Below, piece after piece: positions 1,085-43,431 of a stretch of DNA of 64,000 bases. The notes beneath the pieces were generated by a model that was not told the DNA's origin, ran no database searches, and was given only the letters and a program-made list of their open reading frames with translations. The stretch lies in NCBI GenBank assembly GCA_026390115.1, contig JAPLGO010000012.1, positions 310,001 through 374,000 on the forward strand, read 5' to 3'. This stretch comes from Campylobacterales bacterium. Its GTDB lineage: Bacteria > Campylobacterota > Campylobacteria > Campylobacterales > Sulfurimonadaceae. The position numbers were made by a program, and so were the translations under genes. Numbering within the stretch: position 1 is the first letter of the stretch; each line of letters starts with the position of its first letter.

Positions 1085-1894
1085 CTATAAACCCTGAATG
1101 CGAATTTTTCTAACCTCGACGAAGTAAGTGTGTCCTAAATAAATCACATAAAAAATAGCTCCGAAAAATATTGTAAATGGTATAAGTGAGACTAAATAGA
1201 TGGCTAGAGTTTTCATTCTTATGGCATTGCCGTTGAAATATTTTATCTTTTTATTTTCCTCTTTTGTACAGATATTTGAAGCTATATCGTAAGTCATCGC
1301 TTTGTGAAAAAAATAGTAGAGAGGGAAGTTGAGAGCTATGATATTTACAAGCGGTATAAAATAGAGCGGAATCAGAACTAGAAAGAGTAAAAGCATGATA
1401 AATGCCCACTTTATCATGTTGAATATTCCCTCAAGAATATTTGAATCTCCCATCATTGCAACATCTGAATAATGTCTCTGCTGAAGTTCTCTGAGGACGG
1501 GTTCGGTTAAAAAGCCTATGACTAAAACAGCTACAAAGATGGAGACATAAAGCACCAGAAATCCGCCAATCGAATAAACCAAAAAGCTCACTATCCACGA
1601 GGTGATGGCATGGGTCATAAGAAATTGGATTATGGAAGAACCTTGAAGCAGTGCTGATGTTGTTTCACTGTTTGCTATGCCGTTATGCATCGTGGTCTGT
1701 GAGCTTTGAATGCTCAGAGTGCCGAGCTGTTCAAGCCCCATGCCTGCTATGACAAAAAAGATTATATACAGTGCAACCATTGTTATGATAAAAGGCATTA
1801 GTGCGTATTTGAGCATCTTCGGTGTAAAAAAGTCGCGGATACTCAGAAGAAGTAAGTTACTGTTTTTTGTTATTTTTGTTAAATTATTTGCCAT
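1085..1894 (-). CDS. EI24 domain-containing integral membrane protein
   Basis: A 269-residue inner-membrane protein of the EI24 family (Pfam EI24, which also includes the CysZ sulfate permease). Hydrophobic segments lie around residues 30-52, 95-130, 155-185 and 230-255, with a short cytoplasmic N-terminus containing 'IRDFFTPKMLKYALMPF', a typical EI24 entry motif. CysZ-like sulfate transport is possible but cannot be claimed from sequence alone. The ATG at 1894 is preceded by AAGGAT at a good distance. It is divergent from the GH17 gene, with a ~165-base shared upstream region. Confidence 0.75.
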   Translation of the reverse strand: MANNLTKITKNSNLLLLSIRDFFTPKMLKYALMPFIITMVALYIIFFVIAGMGLEQLGTLSIQSSQTTMHNGIANSETTSALLQGSSIIQFLMTHAITSWIVSFLVYSIGGFLVLYVSIFVAVLVIGFLTEPVLRELQQRHYSDVAMMGDSNILEGIFNMIKWAFIMLLLFLVLIPLYFIPLVNIIALNFPLYYFFHKAMTYDIASNICTKEENKKIKYFNGNAIRMKTLAIYLVSLIPFTIFFGAIFYVIYLGHTYFVEVRKIRIQGL

Positions 1895-2060
1895 AGTGAA
1901 ATCCTTTTTCTTAATTGCTTAGTCTATCACTGTTTTGTTTAAGTTTTAGTTATGGTAAAACCATAAAAACAGAGGAAATTATATTAAAATAGTGTATAAA
2001 TCTGCTATTAAAAATAGTTATCGTTTTATGAATTTTTATAAAACTGCACAAAGGAAAGTA

Positions 2061-3998
2061 ATGACAAAAAAAATATCGGTTATTCTGGCGGCTCTTGCCA
2101 TAGTAGCACTCTTTTGGTACCTAGTCGGAGAGGTTTTCATCTTAAAAAGCAGTGAAAATTCTATTTCAAAACTTCAGTGTGTTTCATACGCGCCCTTTTC
2201 AAAAGATCAATCTCCAATGTTGTTTGATCAAGGAATGGTAATTTCAGAGGAACAAGTAAGAGAAGATTTGACTCTGCTCTCAAAATACACGGATTGCATC
2301 AGAACATACTCTATTTTGGGGCTGGAGATGGTTCCTAAAATTGCAAGAGAGAATGGTCTTAAAATGCTTATGGGTGGCTGGGTAAGCAGTGACAAGATTG
2401 CGACAGAGAAGGAGATAAAAGCTCTTATTACTCTTGCAAGCCAGAACAGAGATATTGTAAAAGCGATTATTGTAGGCAACGAGGCTCTGCTCCGCGGAGA
2501 GGTGACGGACACAACTCTTATTGGGTACATCAAAGAGGTGAAAAAAGCGCTTCCTGATATTAAGGTTACATACGCAGACGTTTGGGAATTTTGGCTTAAA
2601 CATCCGCAAATAAGAGAGGTCACAGACTTTGTAACTATTCATATTCTACCATATTGGGAAGATGATCCGATGAATATCGATGCTTCTTTGAAGCATCTGG
2701 CAGAGGTGAGAGGAGAGGTTGAGGCGATTTTAAAAGAGAAAAATATTTTAATCGGTGAAACAGGCTGGCCTTCCGAGGGGAGAATGCGTGAAGACGCACT
2801 TCCTAGCAAGGTGAATCAGGCAATTTACATACGAGGCTTTGTAAAGCTGGCAGAGGAGAATGAATGGAGCTACAACATCATCGAGGCATTTGACCAGCCA
2901 TGGAAGAGAATGAGCGAGGGAGCCGTCGGCGGATTCTGGGGCTTGTTTGACAAAGATAGAGTGGATAAACATGTTTTTGCGGGGGATGTCTCAAACTTTC
3001 CAAACTATAAACCCTTGGCTTTTGGCTCACTTTTACTTCTTTTTGCATTCTCCTTTTTGCTAAGAGGTTCAAAGATAGCAACGAAAAAAGTAGTGTTGTT
3101 TGGAGCTATTAACTCTCTTTTCGCAATCTTATTTATGCTTCAAGCAGAGCAGTATATGATGACGGCAAGAACGGCTTTAGAATTCGGTTGGGCAGGTTTG
3201 GTTCTTGCAACACACTTCTTTATATACTACTTTTTACTTTACAATATCGCCAAAGATAAAAAGCCGGAGATTATAAATATTTCTGCAATTTTGAAACAAA
3301 AAATATTCAACGCAGACACATCTCTTATGGTTCTTTTTTATCTTTCTTTTGTTTTTCTTCTCATCTCAAATCTTGCTCTTGCCCTTGAGGGAAGGTATAA
3401 AAATTTCGATATTTATATATTTACTGTCTCGGCTATCTCCTTCTTGTGGCTTTACAGAGGCAGATTTGAGAGTATGCATTTTGGAAGATTTGAAAAAGCA
3501 TCCTCTTTAATTTTGGCAATAACGACGGTTGCGATTTTTGTAAATGAGAGCTACCTCAATCTTTTTTCGGATCTATGGGTTTTAATCTCGGTTGGATTTG
3601 CTTCTATCCTATACATGGGCAGCAAAAAAACAGCCTTGAGCGAGCTTAAAAATCTTGCACTTTTTATGATTCTGTTTTTTGGAATTTTTGCCTATTTAAG
3701 ATACGGAATTTTTATGAACGATGCTGTTGCAGCGCAGTGTAACGTATCGGCAGACTCTTTTCTTTGCACGCTAAGAGCTAAAATCGGTCTGTTTGCCTAC
3801 ATGCATGTTTTTGGAGAAGTTGCAGTTGCTGCTGCCGTGGTCGCACTTTTTGCAAACAAAAGAGTACTCTCAATTTTGGCTCTGTTTTTAAGCATCGGTG
3901 CATTAATGATGATGAATGCTTTTTTTGGTGCAATTGCTTTCGCAGTTGCAGTTTTTGTTATGACAAAAAATACTACACATAAAATAGCAGGCAATTAA
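2061..3998 (+). CDS. Membrane-anchored GH17-like beta-1,3-glucan enzyme
   Basis: A 645-residue protein with an N-terminal membrane anchor (residues ~5-25), a glycoside hydrolase family 17-like TIM barrel (~40-310) and about nine C-terminal transmembrane segments. The two catalytic acids of clan GH-A are in place: the acid/base Glu in 'VGNEALLR' (~residue 141) and the nucleophile Glu in 'IGETGWPSEG' (~233). 'CVSYAPF' opens the barrel as usual. Family members act on beta-1,3-glucans as hydrolases or transglycosylases; a role in a periplasmic or extracellular beta-glucan is inference. I chose ATG 2061 (AAGGA five bases upstream) over a GTG at 1992 without a ribosome site. The stop overlaps the convergent flavoprotein gene by 4 bases. 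Confidence 0.75.
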   Translation: MTKKISVILAALAIVALFWYLVGEVFILKSSENSISKLQCVSYAPFSKDQSPMLFDQGMVISEEQVREDLTLLSKYTDCIRTYSILGLEMVPKIARENGLKMLMGGWVSSDKIATEKEIKALITLASQNRDIVKAIIVGNEALLRGEVTDTTLIGYIKEVKKALPDIKVTYADVWEFWLKHPQIREVTDFVTIHILPYWEDDPMNIDASLKHLAEVRGEVEAILKEKNILIGETGWPSEGRMREDALPSKVNQAIYIRGFVKLAEENEWSYNIIEAFDQPWKRMSEGAVGGFWGLFDKDRVDKHVFAGDVSNFPNYKPLAFGSLLLLFAFSFLLRGSKIATKKVVLFGAINSLFAILFMLQAEQYMMTARTALEFGWAGLVLATHFFIYYFLLYNIAKDKKPEIINISAILKQKIFNADTSLMVLFYLSFVFLLISNLALALEGRYKNFDIYIFTVSAISFLWLYRGRFESMHFGRFEKASSLILAITTVAIFVNESYLNLFSDLWVLISVGFASILYMGSKKTALSELKNLALFMILFFGIFAYLRYGIFMNDAVAAQCNVSADSFLCTLRAKIGLFAYMHVFGEVAVAAAVVALFANKRVLSILALFLSIGALMMMNAFFGAIAFAVAVFVMTKNTTHKIAGN

Positions 3999-5185
3999 GA
4001 GGAGGTTATGCTTTTTGCGGCGGAGTATCCGCTTGCCCATGCAAAGGCAAAATTGTATCCTCCTCTACGTCCAACAATATCTAAAACCTCTCCGCAGAAG
4101 TAGAGGTTTTTTTGTTTGAGGGATTCCATCGTTTTTGGATTAATTTCGTTTGTATTTACCCCTCCGCCGCTCACCTCTGCATGCCTGAAACCATGCGTGT
4201 CACTTACCTCAAATTTCCAGTTTAAAATCTGATTGGCTATTCTTTTTGCTGCTTTTGTATCTATCTCTTTTGCTAATCTGAGATGTGGTATCTTTAAATC
4301 ATCGAGGAGTGAGGCGGCAATTTTGAGTGGAGTTAAGCCAATCAAAATATCCAAAACAGAAAATTTCGGCATGCTCTTTGCGATTTTGCTGATATGTTCC
4401 GAGAGCTGTTGCGCGTTCATGTTGGGAAGTAAATTGATAGATATTTCTACCTGCTTTGAACCCATGAGTGCCTCGCTTGCTCTTTGCGAAATGTCGAGAA
4501 CAGCAAAGCCTGAAACACCGTAGTCCGTGAAGAGAATATCGCCGCGGCATGCGGACTCTTTTTTGTTGTTTACAAGCAGCGTAACCTTTCCATCAGTTTT
4601 TGTACCAGACATTTTATGAACAATTTTAGAGTTTAGATGCAGCTGAACAAGAGAGGGATAGGTCGGGATAATACTGTGTCCAAACTCTTTGGCAAAACTC
4701 TGTCCGTCGCTGTTTCCGCCAAGGTGGCTCGCTGCCTCTGAGCCGGTTGCAATCACCACTTTGTCATGTGTTTGGAGCAGTTTTTTAACATCTGTAATCT
4801 TCATATCCATATGAAAAACAACGCCCAGATTTTCTGCAACCACTTGCAAAAGTTTAGCGACAGATTTTGCCTCATTGCTCAGTGGATAGACCCGTCCATC
4901 CTCTTTAACATCGAGTAGCAGACCTATCTCAAGAGCAAACTTTTCAAACTCTTTGAAACCGAAATTTTTGAGTGCGTCGTTTACAAAGGAGGGATTGGCA
5001 CCAAAGAAATCACTCTGGCTTAAATTTCTATTTGTAATGTTGCATCTGCCGTTTCCGGAGACTAAAATCTTTTTGGCACATTTGTTGTTCTGTTCATAAA
5101 TTTCCACATGTGCTTCGAATTTTGCACAAAAGATAGCGCACAAAAGCCCGGATGCTCCGCCGCCGATAATTGCAACTTTTAGCAT
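3995..5185 (-). CDS. HI0933-family FAD-dependent oxidoreductase
   Basis: A 396-residue flavoprotein of the HI0933/YhiN (BaiN-like) family. The N-terminus 'VAIIGGGASGLLCAI' is the dinucleotide-binding fold, followed by 'EQNNKCAKKILVSGNGRCNITN', the family hallmark, and near the end 'GGYNFAFAWASG', the second FAD contact. Members are predicted NAD(P)H-dependent reductases; most have no proven substrate, and some gut homologues act on bile acid intermediates. The length fits the family. The start is 1 base after the mutS2 stop, so it is probably translated from the mutS2 message. Confidence 0.85.
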   Translation of the reverse strand: MLKVAIIGGGASGLLCAIFCAKFEAHVEIYEQNNKCAKKILVSGNGRCNITNRNLSQSDFFGANPSFVNDALKNFGFKEFEKFALEIGLLLDVKEDGRVYPLSNEAKSVAKLLQVVAENLGVVFHMDMKITDVKKLLQTHDKVVIATGSEAASHLGGNSDGQSFAKEFGHSIIPTYPSLVQLHLNSKIVHKMSGTKTDGKVTLLVNNKKESACRGDILFTDYGVSGFAVLDISQRASEALMGSKQVEISINLLPNMNAQQLSEHISKIAKSMPKFSVLDILIGLTPLKIAASLLDDLKIPHLRLAKEIDTKAAKRIANQILNWKFEVSDTHGFRHAEVSGGGVNTNEINPKTMESLKQKNLYFCGEVLDIVGRRGGYNFAFAWASGYSAAKSITSS

Positions 5186-38880: not shown

Positions 38881-39975
38881 TCAGTCTTTGTCATGTAAGA
38901 TTTGATCTAAAGTAGCGAATACTTCTGTACTTCCTTTTTCCATCTCTTCAAATGCACTTACCATCTGTCTTAAATCAACATTTTCATGCACCATCAAGTC
39001 AAAAACTTTATGAGTTCCGTTGTGAACAGTGGCATGCGAAGATTCTAGTTTAGAATAGTGAGAAGTATGAGAGAAACTTTCTTTTCCATCACCCTCATAG
39101 TACCATTTACCTAGGCGGCAGTTATGATGGTCAACAAATTTGAACTGTTCCTCTTTAGTAACGGCTGAGTAGTAAGTATTCACTTTCCATAAAATATGGT
39201 CTAGTTTTGCAAGCGACATAAATATACGGTCGTTAGTGAAGCCTATTGTTTTAAAAGAGTCCTTCATCTCAACCGCGTCATGTGAGAGACACCCATTCAG
39301 CTGCATAATCATCTCATTTGAATTACCAATGCCACTCTTAATCTCTGAAAACTGCTCTGACATGCTGTCAACATCTTGCTTCATTGATTGCAGAGAGATA
39401 TTTATTTCACTTACTGCCTTATCTGTTCTATCTGCCAGTTTTCTGACTTCATCGGCAACCACGGCAAACCCCCGTCCATGCTCACCTGCACGGGCTGCTT
39501 CGATTGCCGCGTTGAGAGCTAGCAGATTTGTTTGGTCTGATATATCTTTTATAAGAGATAAAATGCTTGATATGTCATTCGTTCTTTGTGAAAGGCCTTG
39601 CACCGTATGCATTGAATTGTCAGAGAGTTCATTTAAATCATCAAGAGTTTTGACAACATGTTTTGATTTTTCGGCAATCTGAGCGATGCTTGTAACTAAT
39701 TCGTTTGTCTTTGTTAAGCTACTTTTGGAAGCAGAAACAGATTCTGCCATATTCCCCTGAATATCCATAATATTGGCTTTTAGATTCAAATTTTGCATTT
39801 TAGTAAGAACTTCCGGCACACTCTCTTTTGGTTTAGAATTGAATACCTTTAGTTCACCTTCTAACTGAATAATGCGTGCATTCAGCTCACTATTCCTATT
39901 TTCAAGTGCTTCACTCTCATATTTTAGTTTATTATAATCAGCTAGAGGTATTCCAGAGTTTCCAAACAGTCCCAT
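38881..39975 (-). CDS. Soluble methyl-accepting chemotaxis protein with CZB zinc domain
   Basis: A 364-residue cytoplasmic chemoreceptor without transmembrane helices. The N-terminal coiled coil (~8-60) leads into a receptor signalling hairpin with the near-invariant tip '[20 protein letters not shown]' (~residues 144-163), followed by a C-terminal CZB domain: '[15 protein letters not shown]' (~270) and '[15 protein letters not shown]' supply the His/Cys zinc ligands. CZB receptors sense zinc or oxidants such as hypochlorite via the Cys. It lies beside two c-di-GMP enzymes, a plausible motility-biofilm module. Confidence 0.92.
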
Positions 39976-40330: not shown

Positions 40331-41773
40331 TTAAAAAACAATGGCTTCGAATGTGTAAATTTCTGCATCTTTGTAGCCATCAAAGCCTATCTTTGCTTTT
40401 TCTTTTGCACAATTTCCTACAAATTCTTCCACGTTCCAATTCATCTGAGAGGCTACTTGAGGCAAAAAAGTTCCATTCTTTGACCCCTTTTTTATGTAGA
40501 TTCCATGCCTACCCAAAACAATCTCATCTAAAAAGTTTATTCTTTTTCTAGGAGTTAAAACTGAAATTTCTATCTCAATATCTTTAAGTTCATCTGGAAT
40601 GACTTCTTGAAATCTGTTGTCAAATTTAGCCGAGGCAACTGCCATTTTCATAACAACTTTGTAGAGAGGCTCATCTGCTTCAAATGTGCCAATGCATCCT
40701 CGCAATTTTCCATTTTTGTAGAGCGTTACAAAAGCACCTAAAGGCTCTTTTAGTTTTGATGATATCCTGCTTTCATCAATTGAGATTTTGTTGTTGTTGA
40801 TAGTAGCCTCATAAAGAGAGAGTCTTGCAATTTCTCGCAGCTCCTTTTTTTCTTTATCGTTCAAAAAAAAGTCACTGTTTTGTTTGAAAATTCTGAGCGC
40901 AGAGTAGCCGACAACCCTTTTTTTGTCCCCAAAAGAAGTGTCACCGGAATTTTTGTATTTTAAAAGTTCATATTTGTAATGAGCGTTTTGAGTGAGATAT
41001 AAAAGTGTCAAAATAGAACTCCAACCGCATGCCGAAGTTTGCAGCTGTGCAATGTTTAAATCTTCATTCTTTGCAAGTGTTTTTACAAATTCTTTCGGGG
41101 AACCGCTCTTAATGGAGTCAATTGTCTGTTTATCAATAGCATTGGCATCTGAGTAGGAGGGATAGTGGGATAAATCGCTGCTGATTATAAAGAGATTCTT
41201 TTCGTTAAAATAGGGTTTAAGTCTCTTAGCAATCTCTTGAATTGTCTCTAAGTTTGAAGTTGCAATTACGATTGGAACTATACCCAGCGCATCGCCGTAA
41301 ATGGTTTGTAAAAAGGGAAGTTGTACCTCTATCGTATGCTCTTTTTTATGAGCCTCAGGGTTGAAACTAAAATATTTTGAATCTTTTATAAGCTCAGATA
41401 CTATTGTTTGGTTTACCTTTATCTCTCCGAGCGGAGTTGCGTAATTTCCTGCGGAGTAGATGGAGGCAGCGTTAAAATTCATAGAGTGGCTTGAGCCTAT
41501 AATAAATATGTTTTCGTATTTTCTGTGAAGTGTTGCATACGCCTCTGCTGCGATATCTCCTGAGAAAATGTAGCCGGCATGTGGAACTATCAGGGCATTT
41601 ATATTCTCTTTGGGAAAGCTTTTAGAGTTTTGAAGAGCTGTTTTAATTGAAGTAGAGAGTTCCTCTTTGTTGCTGCTATAAAATGAGCCTGCTACCGCTG
41701 CGGGTCTCGGTAAAGCGTGAAGGAGTTGAGAAAAGAGCAGTAAAAAGATTACTGCTTTGTGCTTTTTACACAT
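40331..41773 (-). CDS. Secreted MEMO1-AMMECR1 fusion (AmmeMemoRadiSam proteins B and A)
   Basis: A 480-residue fusion. Residues 1-20 form a signal peptide (basic start, 'VIFLLLFSQLL', cleavage near 'LHA-LP'). Residues ~21-285 are a MEMO domain ('RPAAVAGSFY', 'IVPHAGYIFSGDIAAEA', 'GSSHSMNF', 'ISSDLSHYPS', 'ACGWSSI'); ~310-480 are AMMECR1 ('LGAFVTLYKNGKLRGCIGTF', 'SVLTPRKRI'). The three-part AmmeMemoRadiSam set has no established function; the radical-SAM member is not in this window. Export of the fusion is unusual. The start overlaps the DUF1566 gene by 25 bases. Confidence 0.88.
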   Translation of the reverse strand: MCKKHKAVIFLLLFSQLLHALPRPAAVAGSFYSSNKEELSTSIKTALQNSKSFPKENINALIVPHAGYIFSGDIAAEAYATLHRKYENIFIIGSSHSMNFNAASIYSAGNYATPLGEIKVNQTIVSELIKDSKYFSFNPEAHKKEHTIEVQLPFLQTIYGDALGIVPIVIATSNLETIQEIAKRLKPYFNEKNLFIISSDLSHYPSYSDANAIDKQTIDSIKSGSPKEFVKTLAKNEDLNIAQLQTSACGWSSILTLLYLTQNAHYKYELLKYKNSGDTSFGDKKRVVGYSALRIFKQNSDFFLNDKEKKELREIARLSLYEATINNNKISIDESRISSKLKEPLGAFVTLYKNGKLRGCIGTFEADEPLYKVVMKMAVASAKFDNRFQEVIPDELKDIEIEISVLTPRKRINFLDEIVLGRHGIYIKKGSKNGTFLPQVASQMNWNVEEFVGNCAKEKAKIGFDGYKDAEIYTFEAIVF

Positions 41774-42162
41774 CTCACGCGTCTATCGTAGCTTTTTACT
41801 ATGATGTCGGTTTTTCCGTCTCTAAAATTAATTGCCCACATTCTATCTGCATCATCTACAAAGGGAGTGGATGACCAATATACTTCGTTCGCCACAGAGG
41901 TAAATCCCTCTATCATAGCAGGTTTGAAGTGCTTATAATCGACCAAAGTGTGTAGTTCAGTCAATGTTGGAATACGAAAATCTTTCTGAGAGCCAACTAC
42001 GAGTTTAGCACAGTAATCCTGAGCCTTATAATAGTTTATCTGCAACTCTTTAGAATCAATATTGTCTTGCCAAAGCAGTGAAGTTGACTTATCTTTTATC
42101 AGCTCTGTTGCGCTGATAGAAGTAACAAAAAGTACTCCCAAACTTAAAAGTAGTTTTCTCAT
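41749..42162 (-). CDS. Exported DUF1566 (Lcl-like) protein
   Basis: A 137-residue exported protein: signal peptide (~1-18, 'LLLSLGVLFVTSISA'), then a DUF1566 domain with 'LLWQD', 'YYKAQDYCAKL', 'FRIPTLTELHTLVDY', 'YWSSTPF' and the terminal 'DRRVRCVK'. Two Cys (~50 and ~131) probably form a disulfide. The family includes adhesin-like and fibronectin/collagen-binding domains; function here is unknown. It is coupled by overlap to the secreted MEMO-AMMECR1 fusion, so the two may act in the same compartment. Confidence 0.8.
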   Translation of the reverse strand: MRKLLLSLGVLFVTSISATELIKDKSTSLLWQDNIDSKELQINYYKAQDYCAKLVVGSQKDFRIPTLTELHTLVDYKHFKPAMIEGFTSVANEVYWSSTPFVDDADRMWAINFRDGKTDIIVKSYDRRVRCVKSTKQ

Positions 42163-42198: not shown

Positions 42199-43431
42199 CT
42201 ATAAATTTTTATTATTTATATGGCTGATCGTTTCACCTTGAAAACTCATAATTACACATCCGTTTAGCTCTTCATTATTGTAAAGTGATTGAGAATTTTG
42301 CACAGTTGTCGTAGCATGCGGATTAAAAAGGATGGCATCTGCTTTTTGTCCGACTTCTATAGTGCCTGCTTTTTTATTTATGCAGGAGGCAGGATTTTTT
42401 ACGGTGAGCTTTATAAGTTCGCTCATGCTGATAAGGCCGGATTTTACCAGTTTCGTATAGTAGAGAGGAAGTGCATCGCCAAGAGCTTCACAGCCGTAGT
42501 GTGCATCATAAAAAGCAACCTCTTTATTGACGGGGGAAGAGGGTTGATGAAGCATTGTTAACATGTCAATTTGATGATTTTTCAGAGCTTCTTGAAGAAG
42601 TTTTACATCACTTGCACATGCCAGAGGCGGATTGAGTTTTGCAGTCGTGTTAAAGTTTTCACAAGCAATGTCAGAGTGCAACAGGTGGTGAATTGAGACT
42701 TCACATCGCACATCGACACCCTCTTTTTTTGCCTTGTCTATAAGGTAAATTGAACGGGGAGAAGCGATAGCTTTGAAGAGTATCTTTATCTTAAAATGTC
42801 TTGCTATCTCTATCATTCGTGAGACATGTAACACTTCACTTAAATCAGGAATTCCGGCGAGTCCTAATTGCGAACTGATATCACCCTCAAGCATAACACC
42901 GCTTTGAATCATGGAGTTATCCTCAGCCTTGCAAAAGAGTGTAACTCCATACATCTGCACATATTCGGCTATTTTGATAGCGATATTGTTTTTTGCAATG
43001 GTGCTCATGTAGGGAACAATTGCCCCTTTTTTTAATAAAATAGCTATATTGCTGAGCGAAGCATCCTCTTTGAGAGTGTTAAGCATCATATCAACTTTCG
43101 CTCCGCTCAAATCATGCAAACCGTTTTGTGCAAACTCCAAAACAACTTCATTATCAATGGCAGGCGTAGAGTCGGCATTGAGAACCATGTGCCCGATTCC
43201 ACCTTTGAGAGCTTCCTGTGAAATAGCTTTAATATTTTTTGAGTTTAAAATTCCATCTTGAAGTCTTACATTTGTATCAACCAAAAGAGGCATAAAATAG
43301 AAGCCGGTTGCATCTATTATCTCATCGCTTATTAAGCCAGAACCCATCTCTGTTATAATTCCGTTTTCTATGCGAACATCCGCTTTTCTCTCTCCGTTTG
43401 TATCACAAACTATTGCATTTGACAGTACCAT
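42199..43431 (-). CDS. Dihydroorotase-like protein lacking metal ligands
   Basis: A 410-residue amidohydrolase-fold protein of the dihydroorotase (multifunctional-complex type) family, the third step of pyrimidine synthesis. The family frame is clear ('DVRIENGIITEMG', 'KLNPPLACASDVKLL', 'NPASCINKKAGTIEVGQKAD'), but the HxH metal motif (normally D-x-H-x-H) reads 'VDTNVRLQDG' and the usual 'TDHAPH' region reads 'TMLHQPSSPV'. It is probably a non-catalytic PyrC-like subunit, as found in other bacteria where it supports aspartate transcarbamoylase. GAAGGTGG precedes the ATG. Confidence 0.85.
   Translation of the reverse strand: MVLSNAIVCDTNGERKADVRIENGIITEMGSGLISDEIIDATGFYFMPLLVDTNVRLQDGILNSKNIKAISQEALKGGIGHMVLNADSTPAIDNEVVLEFAQNGLHDLSGAKVDMMLNTLKEDASLSNIAILLKKGAIVPYMSTIAKNNIAIKIAEYVQMYGVTLFCKAEDNSMIQSGVMLEGDISSQLGLAGIPDLSEVLHVSRMIEIARHFKIKILFKAIASPRSIYLIDKAKKEGVDVRCEVSIHHLLHSDIACENFNTTAKLNPPLACASDVKLLQEALKNHQIDMLTMLHQPSSPVNKEVAFYDAHYGCEALGDALPLYYTKLVKSGLISMSELIKLTVKNPASCINKKAGTIEVGQKADAILFNPHATTTVQNSQSLYNNEELNGCVIMSFQGETISHINNKNL

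Follow-up and report, generated by a model that had tools for sequence, protein, structure and literature searches.

An exported MEMO-AMMECR1 fusion protein in the Sulfurimonadaceae, a putative orphan of a candidate extracytoplasmic AmmeMemoRadiSam branch

Introduction

The AmmeMemoRadiSam system comprises three protein families, AMMECR1 (A, TIGR04335), MEMO (B, TIGR04336), and a radical SAM enzyme (TIGR04337), and a description of Memo-Ammecr1 systems dates from 2019 (cited in PMC7159879). According to a study of human MEMO1, MEMO is conserved up to humans and its reaction is unknown, the human protein binds both iron and copper through H49, H81, and C244, and no dioxygenase activity was obtained with the substrates tried (PMC11081632). 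AMMECR1, like MEMO, is uncharacterised. A second paper reportedly deals with copper (PMC9477392). Neither exported AmmeMemoRadiSam proteins nor an exported radical SAM enzyme are named in the titles or abstract openings among the literature matches listed, which did not cover the Memo superfamily paper of 2019 in JBC.

The structures closest to the protein described here are of single domains. Human MEMO1 (PDB 7kq8, 3bcz) was solved as MEMO alone, and the archaeal AMMECR1 proteins PH0010, MM0484, and ST0229 were solved as separate proteins. The class III extradiol dioxygenases, such as 4,5-DOPA dioxygenase and aminophenol dioxygenase, have the MEMO fold and use Glu or Asp as the third metal ligand. 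In the following, we describe a leader-bearing MEMO-AMMECR1 fusion from a member of the Sulfurimonadaceae and its relatives within this family and in other phyla.

Results

The fusion protein and its leader

The window, a stretch of 64,000 nucleotides from contig JAPLGO010000012.1 of a Campylobacterales bacterium (assembly GCA_026390115.1), encodes on its reverse strand a fusion protein of 480 residues (positions 40331-41773), which was characterized from its open reading frame by NCBIfam and Pfam domain models, AlphaFold2, and Foldseek. In a single chain, a Sec-type signal peptide (residues 1-20, MCKKHKAVIFLLLFSQLLHA; 41714-41773, reverse strand) is followed by a MEMO domain (residues 23-293; 40895-41707, reverse strand; TIGR04336, 253 bits, cut-off 26) and an AMMECR1 domain with the RGCIG motif (C360; residues 311-480; 40334-40843, reverse strand; TIGR04335, 156 bits, cut-off 99). 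The Pfam Memo and AMMECR1 models agree with this placement, and the initial annotation of this DNA, which had proposed the two domains to be fused in one chain behind an export leader, is borne out by the reading frame, the domain models, and the leader. The signal peptide was called by the leader rule described below, and its cleavage after LHA was placed by eye. Start codons occur in the frame at residues 1, 98, 255, and later positions. Because a start at residue 98, the next one in frame, would delete H65 and H96, the leader is unavoidable, and there is no usable start downstream of the hydrophobic segment, a possibility for which the annotation had allowed.

The AlphaFold2 model, built from a 40-row alignment, had a mean pLDDT of 93.7, with low values for residues 1-20 and a helix spanning residues 3-16. 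Foldseek matched the model to human MEMO1 (7kq8, E 1.2e-24) and to AMMECR1 (1zq7, E 4.1e-19), and the C-terminal domain shares the fold of the archaeal AMMECR1 proteins. The window protein thus has the fold of human MEMO1 and, in H65, H96, and C249, counterparts of its iron ligands H49, H81, and C244, and differs from it in being leader-bearing and fused to AMMECR1. With its metal ligands intact, it is, at the ligand level, a putative member of the iron-binding MEMO proteins. The class III extradiol dioxygenases were matched with the same fold at a lower score (E about 1e-7), but the window protein has Cys in place of their Glu or Asp and falls outside this class by its ligands. The three ligands are kept in 77/77 leader-bearing fused rows, 15/15 leaderless fused rows, and 50/50 separate rows.

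Between the window protein and the fusion at locus L039, the leader is 41% identical and still hydrophobic, compared with 67% identity over the whole protein. Ratios of dN/dS were 0.10-0.17 in MEMO and in AMMECR1 for three B-A pairs, with dS near saturation in one; an A-B pair (L049, L050) was left out, as the domain limits applied were those of B-A proteins. Judged by these substitution patterns, both domains are under purifying selection.

AmmeMemoRadiSam genes in the window genome

The window genome (G000; 2.64 Mb in 39 contigs) contains all three families, TIGR04335, TIGR04336, and TIGR04337, and both fusion domains score over the curated cut-offs, as in the described AmmeMemoRadiSam system. 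It departs from that system in that A and B are fused behind a leader in the window, that the radical SAM gene lies on another contig, and that a second, leaderless A and B pair is present. The radical SAM member, proposed earlier as something to look for, was found as one leaderless match (369.5 bits, cut-off 220) on contig C16, and hence not beside A and B, a linkage that is usual but not demanded by the models. The separate pair, AMMECR1 (190 aa) and MEMO (261 aa), is encoded by adjacent genes on contig C27, and the exported fusion is therefore an extra copy (paralogue) beside a leaderless set. A profile search of the genome found neither a second TIGR04337 gene nor a radical SAM protein with a Tat or Sec leader, and a search with one query protein gave no match to the membrane spermidine-synthase-like protein described below. 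As the sole radical SAM protein is leaderless, the folded, exported fusion could not touch it. The earlier claim that export bars contact with a cytoplasmic radical SAM enzyme thus holds for this genome. Export alone need not keep the two apart, however: in other phyla the radical SAM enzyme often bears a Tat or Sec leader of its own or forms part of the chain that has the leader.

Two further features of contig C16 were observed. At L007:9936-11578 (forward strand), a gene that resembles protein-L-isoaspartate methyltransferase by eye comes after the lone radical SAM gene. In addition, a 117-aa AMMECR1-like protein has RGSYS replacing RGCIG (L009:7802-8155, forward strand), and similar short AMMECR1 matches (frames of 121-130 aa, over cut-off) occur in nine of the 16 fusion genomes, G000 included.

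Relatives in the family

Among 151 genomes of the window's family, 129 have TIGR04336, and a MEMO frame longer than 430 aa was found in G000 and 15 others. These 16 fusions comprise 11 of the order MEMO-AMMECR1 (B-A, window included) and five of the order AMMECR1-MEMO (A-B). By our own rule, leaders were called in 10/11 B-A and 5/5 A-B fusions, that is, in 15/16 family fusions. Homologues lacking the hydrophobic segment had been named as what would speak against export; ten of the B-A fusions have it and one, L043 (genome G083), does not. In the single-contig genome G129, the AMMECR1 end of the fusion lies in a second reading frame (L044:5667-7110, forward strand), which may reflect a broken gene or a sequence error.

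The radical SAM gene was sought in 36 of the 151 genomes, chosen by class. It was over cut-off in 10/15 fusion genomes other than G000, in 9/10 genomes with separate MEMO only, and in 0/11 without MEMO (two weak matches; tallied by hand). Of the five fusion genomes without it, three are 56-86% complete, one of them (G043) with a partial match, and two (G011 and G007) are 99-100% complete. In G107, G143, and G083, the fusion is the only MEMO match, no other full-length AMMECR1 was found, and a radical SAM gene is present; fusion and radical SAM are leader-bearing and leaderless, respectively, in G107 and G143, and both leaderless in G083. We also considered whether the radical SAM clade of the G000 type is a dedicated partner of the exported fusion. 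As a strict rule this was rejected, its membership being mixed: fusion genomes account for seven of its ten rows (one of these genomes, G056, has an A-B fusion) and genomes without a fusion for three (G053, G140, and G088), while the fusion genomes G097, G103, and G001 carry the other radical SAM clade of the family (G129 left out).

The Lcl_C gene

The start of the fusion gene is overlapped by 25 nt by the end of a gene for a 137-aa protein with an Lcl_C/DUF1566 match in Pfam (41749-42162, reverse strand), in which a leader was recognized by eye. It is one of two PF07603 (Lcl_C) matches in G000. Directly upstream on the same strand lies a dihydroorotase-like gene (42199-43431, reverse strand; nearest model PRK08417, 474 bits, under the cut-off of 499), a possible member of the same operon, which is also found upstream in L039-L041. 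Of the 11 B-A loci of the family, eight show an overlap of 22-25 nt between the Lcl_C gene and the start of the fusion, and L043, L044, and L046 have the fusion without it. Wherever the two genes adjoin (8/8 loci), the overlap is kept, in more than one chromosomal neighbourhood: the pair has dihydroorotase-like and lpxB-like neighbours (the latter by eye) in the window and L039-L041 (n = 4), pdxA-like neighbours (by eye) in L042, L047, and L048, and another neighbourhood in L045. On account of this conservation, we consider the Lcl_C and fusion genes to stay paired in the family. The overlap with an exported DUF1566 protein reported in the initial annotation is confirmed as to the 25 nt and the Lcl_C match, while export of that protein is judged by eye only; co-occurrence with the DUF1566 gene across genomes, also proposed there, is seen within the window's bacterial family in these 8/11 loci. 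Among gene clusters common to at least three of the named loci (the best 80 of 592, see below), a comparison made at the level of such clusters, Lcl_C did not appear.

On the other side of the fusion, the window encodes a protein with a chemoreceptor-type signalling domain and a CZB zinc-binding domain (38881-39975, reverse strand), and a gene of the same cluster lies beside or near the fusion in L040 and L041.

Leader-bearing fusions and radical SAM enzymes in other phyla

Similarity to the window fusion identified 592 matched stretches, the best 80 of which are the named loci; picked in this way, they are uninformative on prevalence. The phyla named among these best 80 of 592 loci include Bacteroidota, Omnitrophota, Armatimonadota, Acidobacteriota, and Nitrospirota. 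L054 comes from the same genome as G107 and repeats L039. Fused proteins are encoded by 77 of the 80 loci, and A and B are separate genes in L108, L111, and L114. Leader prediction across homologues, which had been suggested, was positive in 62/77 fused proteins (36 Sec, 25 lipoprotein, one Tat), 13 having none and two being cut off. In controls, the same rule called a leader in 2/47 distinct scored separate MEMO genes (one more cut off) and in 1/22 scored separate AMMECR1 rows (seven more cut off), the 22 including one second-frame piece and two short rows. Five cut fusion pieces (L176, L231-L234) were dropped before the separate-MEMO count, and three separate-MEMO genes and four radical SAM sequences occurring twice among the rows were each counted once. 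All leader calls were made by a rule of our own and not by SignalP. The rule was loosened twice after misses, first by adding a rule for Tat motifs and resetting the start point for proteins that begin with AMMECR1, then by lowering the net charge threshold from 1 to 0, and its counts are therefore descriptive. Compared with inspection by eye, it scored none for the L105 fusion and the L119 radical SAM protein, which look leader-bearing, and Tat for L039/L054, which look Sec, while L027 and L217 look like false alarms.

Among the best 80 of 592 loci, the fetched stretch of 54 contains a stand-alone radical SAM gene, leader-bearing in 28. Over all distinct scored stand-alone radical SAM proteins, 40/134 have a leader, 27 of the 40 being Tat by rule with typical motifs such as KREFLK and RRDFIK. 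The CxxxCxxC[QH]N motif is intact in 42/42 leader-bearing radical SAM domains, three triple fusions included, and in 97/97 leaderless ones. These triple fusions (L056, L058, and L097, from three Bacteroidales) are single frames of 831-856 aa comprising a leader, MEMO, AMMECR1, and the radical SAM domain. Each has a Met just before the MEMO domain, where a leaderless start is possible.

When genomes were searched for 55 of the best 80 of 592 loci, 53 had TIGR04337 over cut-off. The stand-alone radical SAM proteins were read in 51 of these 53: 29 genomes have a leader-bearing one and 24 of the 29 also a leaderless one, which suggests parallel sets inside and outside. In Prevotella-type operons, the fusion has a leader and the accompanying radical SAM gene has none. 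Over 82 rows, a leader was present on both fusion and radical SAM in 37, on the fusion only in 30, on the radical SAM only in five, and on neither in 10; this association was not significant (Fisher p 0.16), and a tree-aware test had too few independent pairs.

Among 99 Bacteroidota genomes sampled irrespective of the fusion, 30 have TIGR04337 over cut-off. The best match was read in 29 genomes (the centre genome and four further matches were left out); 27 have no leader, and the two with a Tat leader are L282, which lies next to a B-A fusion of the lipoprotein type, and L284. The exported radical SAM form is a minority in this sample. The L282 protein (1507-2751, reverse strand) carries an extra N-terminal stretch with CSTCH, a possible heme motif, and its gene overlaps that of the fusion.

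Membrane proteins linked to leader-bearing radical SAM enzymes

In 22 of the best 80 of 592 loci, we identified a membrane protein with a spermidine synthase domain (PF01564 in all four tested), about 680-840 aa long where complete. The gene orders include B-A, membrane protein, radical SAM. At L064, the membrane protein lies at 1905-4064 on the forward strand. In the named strain Mangrovibacterium marinum DSM 28823 (L089), a single locus holds the fusion, which is truncated by the contig end, together with the membrane protein and a radical SAM with a Tat leader. In the same best 80 of 592 loci, it adjoins 17/28 leader-bearing and 3/26 leaderless radical SAM genes (Fisher p 2e-4, a statistic that ignores kinship). 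Among 34 whole genomes searched with one membrane protein, it was present in 10/10 with a leader-bearing stand-alone radical SAM and in 2/24 others, the two exceptions being G153, with the radical SAM gene at a contig end, and G163, with internal stops in the gene. This one-query search did not find it in two triple-fusion genomes or in 11 family genomes. A mixed table of 46 genomes, in which presence was taken from adjacency or from the one-query search and unsearched genomes were left out, had 24 with both features, 16 with neither, four with the membrane protein only, and two, both with triple fusions, with the radical SAM leader only.

The AlphaFold2 model of the membrane protein (pLDDT 86, pTM 0.87) has seven helices, a synthase-like domain, and seven further helices; simple hydropathy gave seven and six. 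Counted on the seven-plus-seven arrangement, loops on the N-terminal side have a mean of 16.7 Lys and Arg compared with 2.2 on the other side, with more in 18/18 sequences, and by the positive-inside rule the synthase-like domain is predicted to lie outside. Foldseek matched this domain to spermidine synthases. In 10 of the 18 sequences, a pattern caught the position that we take to be the usual catalytic Asp of spermidine synthase, and it holds N in six, D in two, S in one, and A in one; with the Asp mostly replaced, the protein may not be a true aminopropyltransferase.

A different membrane protein, of the DsbD_2 type, is encoded directly after radical SAM and the B-A fusion in the Omnitrophota loci L102, L103, L105, L110, L113, L121, and L124, all seven with a leader-bearing radical SAM (Pfam was run on two of the seven).

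Phylogeny

Both trees were quick searches with many weak branches, 51 to 55 inner branches being open. The family's 12 B-A rows (11 distinct) form one group (99*) in the MEMO tree of 144 rows; it is nested in a group of 54 rows (99*) that is otherwise mostly Bacteroidota, and the separate MEMO of G000 (L008) falls in a distant native clade. The exported A-B fusions form one clade (96*) within this native clade. The window fusion is 44-51% identical to the nearest Bacteroidota and Chlorobiota rows of the alignment. It looks to have been acquired horizontally from exported B-A fusions of the Bacteroidota type, without a radical SAM partner, and we read the A-B fusions as having arisen separately, home-made, within the family. 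The radical SAM tree (139 rows, 136 different) places 40 of the 42 leader-bearing rows together in a 69-row group with an unstarred support of 87, and the leader label is explained by seven changes compared with 36 in shuffles. The family's own radical SAM rows lie outside this group in two leaderless clades.

Discussion

The fusion, leader, ligands, constraint, lineage, and Lcl_C overlap could be read directly from the sequences. Starting from these, we consider it rather probable that the window protein resides in the periplasm and belongs to an exported AmmeMemoRadiSam branch, in which an iron-binding MEMO site performs redox chemistry on an envelope molecule with AMMECR1 as partner domain, and that it arrived without radical SAM enzyme and membrane protein and was coupled to Lcl_C. 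The chain would be exported by Sec and fold in the periplasm, iron would be bound in the two-His, one-Cys site of the folded MEMO domain, and the AMMECR1 domain (RGCIG) would assist the redox reaction as a partner. In this cell, the fusion may work either without a radical SAM enzyme or on a product of the cytoplasmic set. Of the proposed branch, the window has the B-A fusion with a Sec or lipoprotein leader. It resembles the Bacteroidota-type exported B-A fusion, often accompanied by a Tat-leader radical SAM and the membrane spermidine-synthase-like protein, in domain order and leader, and differs in that no such radical SAM or membrane protein was found in G000 by the searches above, an Lcl_C gene taking their place.

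The alternative that survives best, although we think it unlikely, is that the exported fusion no longer takes part in the radical SAM pathway and acts on its own in the periplasm as a metal-binding or redox protein, handling iron or copper, for instance. Binding of both metals by human MEMO1 at the same ligands (PMC11081632) is consistent with such a role, as are the five of 15 other family fusion genomes without radical SAM over cut-off. Three of these five are incomplete, however, one with a partial match, leaving the near-complete G011 and G007; AMMECR1 is about as constrained as MEMO in the three pairs compared; and 53 of the 55 genomes searched among the best 80 of 592 loci have a radical SAM over cut-off.

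Clearly less probable is a modification of the AMMECR1 or MEMO part by a cytoplasmic radical SAM enzyme before Sec export, the finished protein then working outside. The leaderless radical SAM in G107 and G143, where the leader-bearing fusion is the only MEMO and the only full-length AMMECR1 match, would fit this, and so would the Prevotella-type operons. Sec substrates cross the membrane unfolded, so that only a stable covalent change would survive export; moreover, no modification site is known, and G143 is 92% complete. We give little credence to an uncleaved membrane anchor holding the domains to either face of the membrane. The MEMO domain does begin about three residues after the predicted cleavage site, but a positive n-region puts the rest of the chain outside, and the lipoboxes found by rule in 25/77 fused proteins of the best 80 of 592 loci again mean outside. 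Least probable of all is a decaying acquired paralogue without function, for although the distribution is patchy (G000 and 15/150 other family genomes, A-B fusions included), L044 is in two frames, and L043 lacks a leader, the low dN/dS in both domains of the three B-A pairs (dS near saturation in one), the retained metal ligands, and the overlap with Lcl_C kept in eight loci all stand against it.

On the preferred reading, we regard the window protein as an orphan piece of a candidate exported branch, and the exported fusions and leader-bearing radical SAM enzymes of other phyla as candidates for an extracytoplasmic AmmeMemoRadiSam pathway. More widely in the branch, transport by Tat in the folded state would let a radical SAM enzyme retain its cluster, and S-adenosylmethionine and electrons would have to be supplied outside, possibly by the spermidine-synthase-like or DsbD_2-type membrane proteins. 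Only tentatively do we propose the fullest version, in which the complete pathway would operate outside the cytoplasm in many bacteria. Tat would export the radical SAM enzyme together with its cluster, the MEMO-AMMECR1 protein would be exported as well, and S-adenosylmethionine would be provided or handled there by the 14 helices and the outward spermidine-synthase-like domain of the membrane protein. In this version, the window protein would be a piece that moved to another phylum and gained a new partner.

An exported fusion narrows the substrate to something of the cell envelope and offers a fused, purifiable MEMO-AMMECR1 pair. A radical SAM enzyme working outside the cytoplasm would depend on S-adenosylmethionine and electrons at an unexpected site, and the linked membrane proteins, spermidine-synthase-like and, in Omnitrophota, of the DsbD_2 type, are concrete and testable candidates for that supply.
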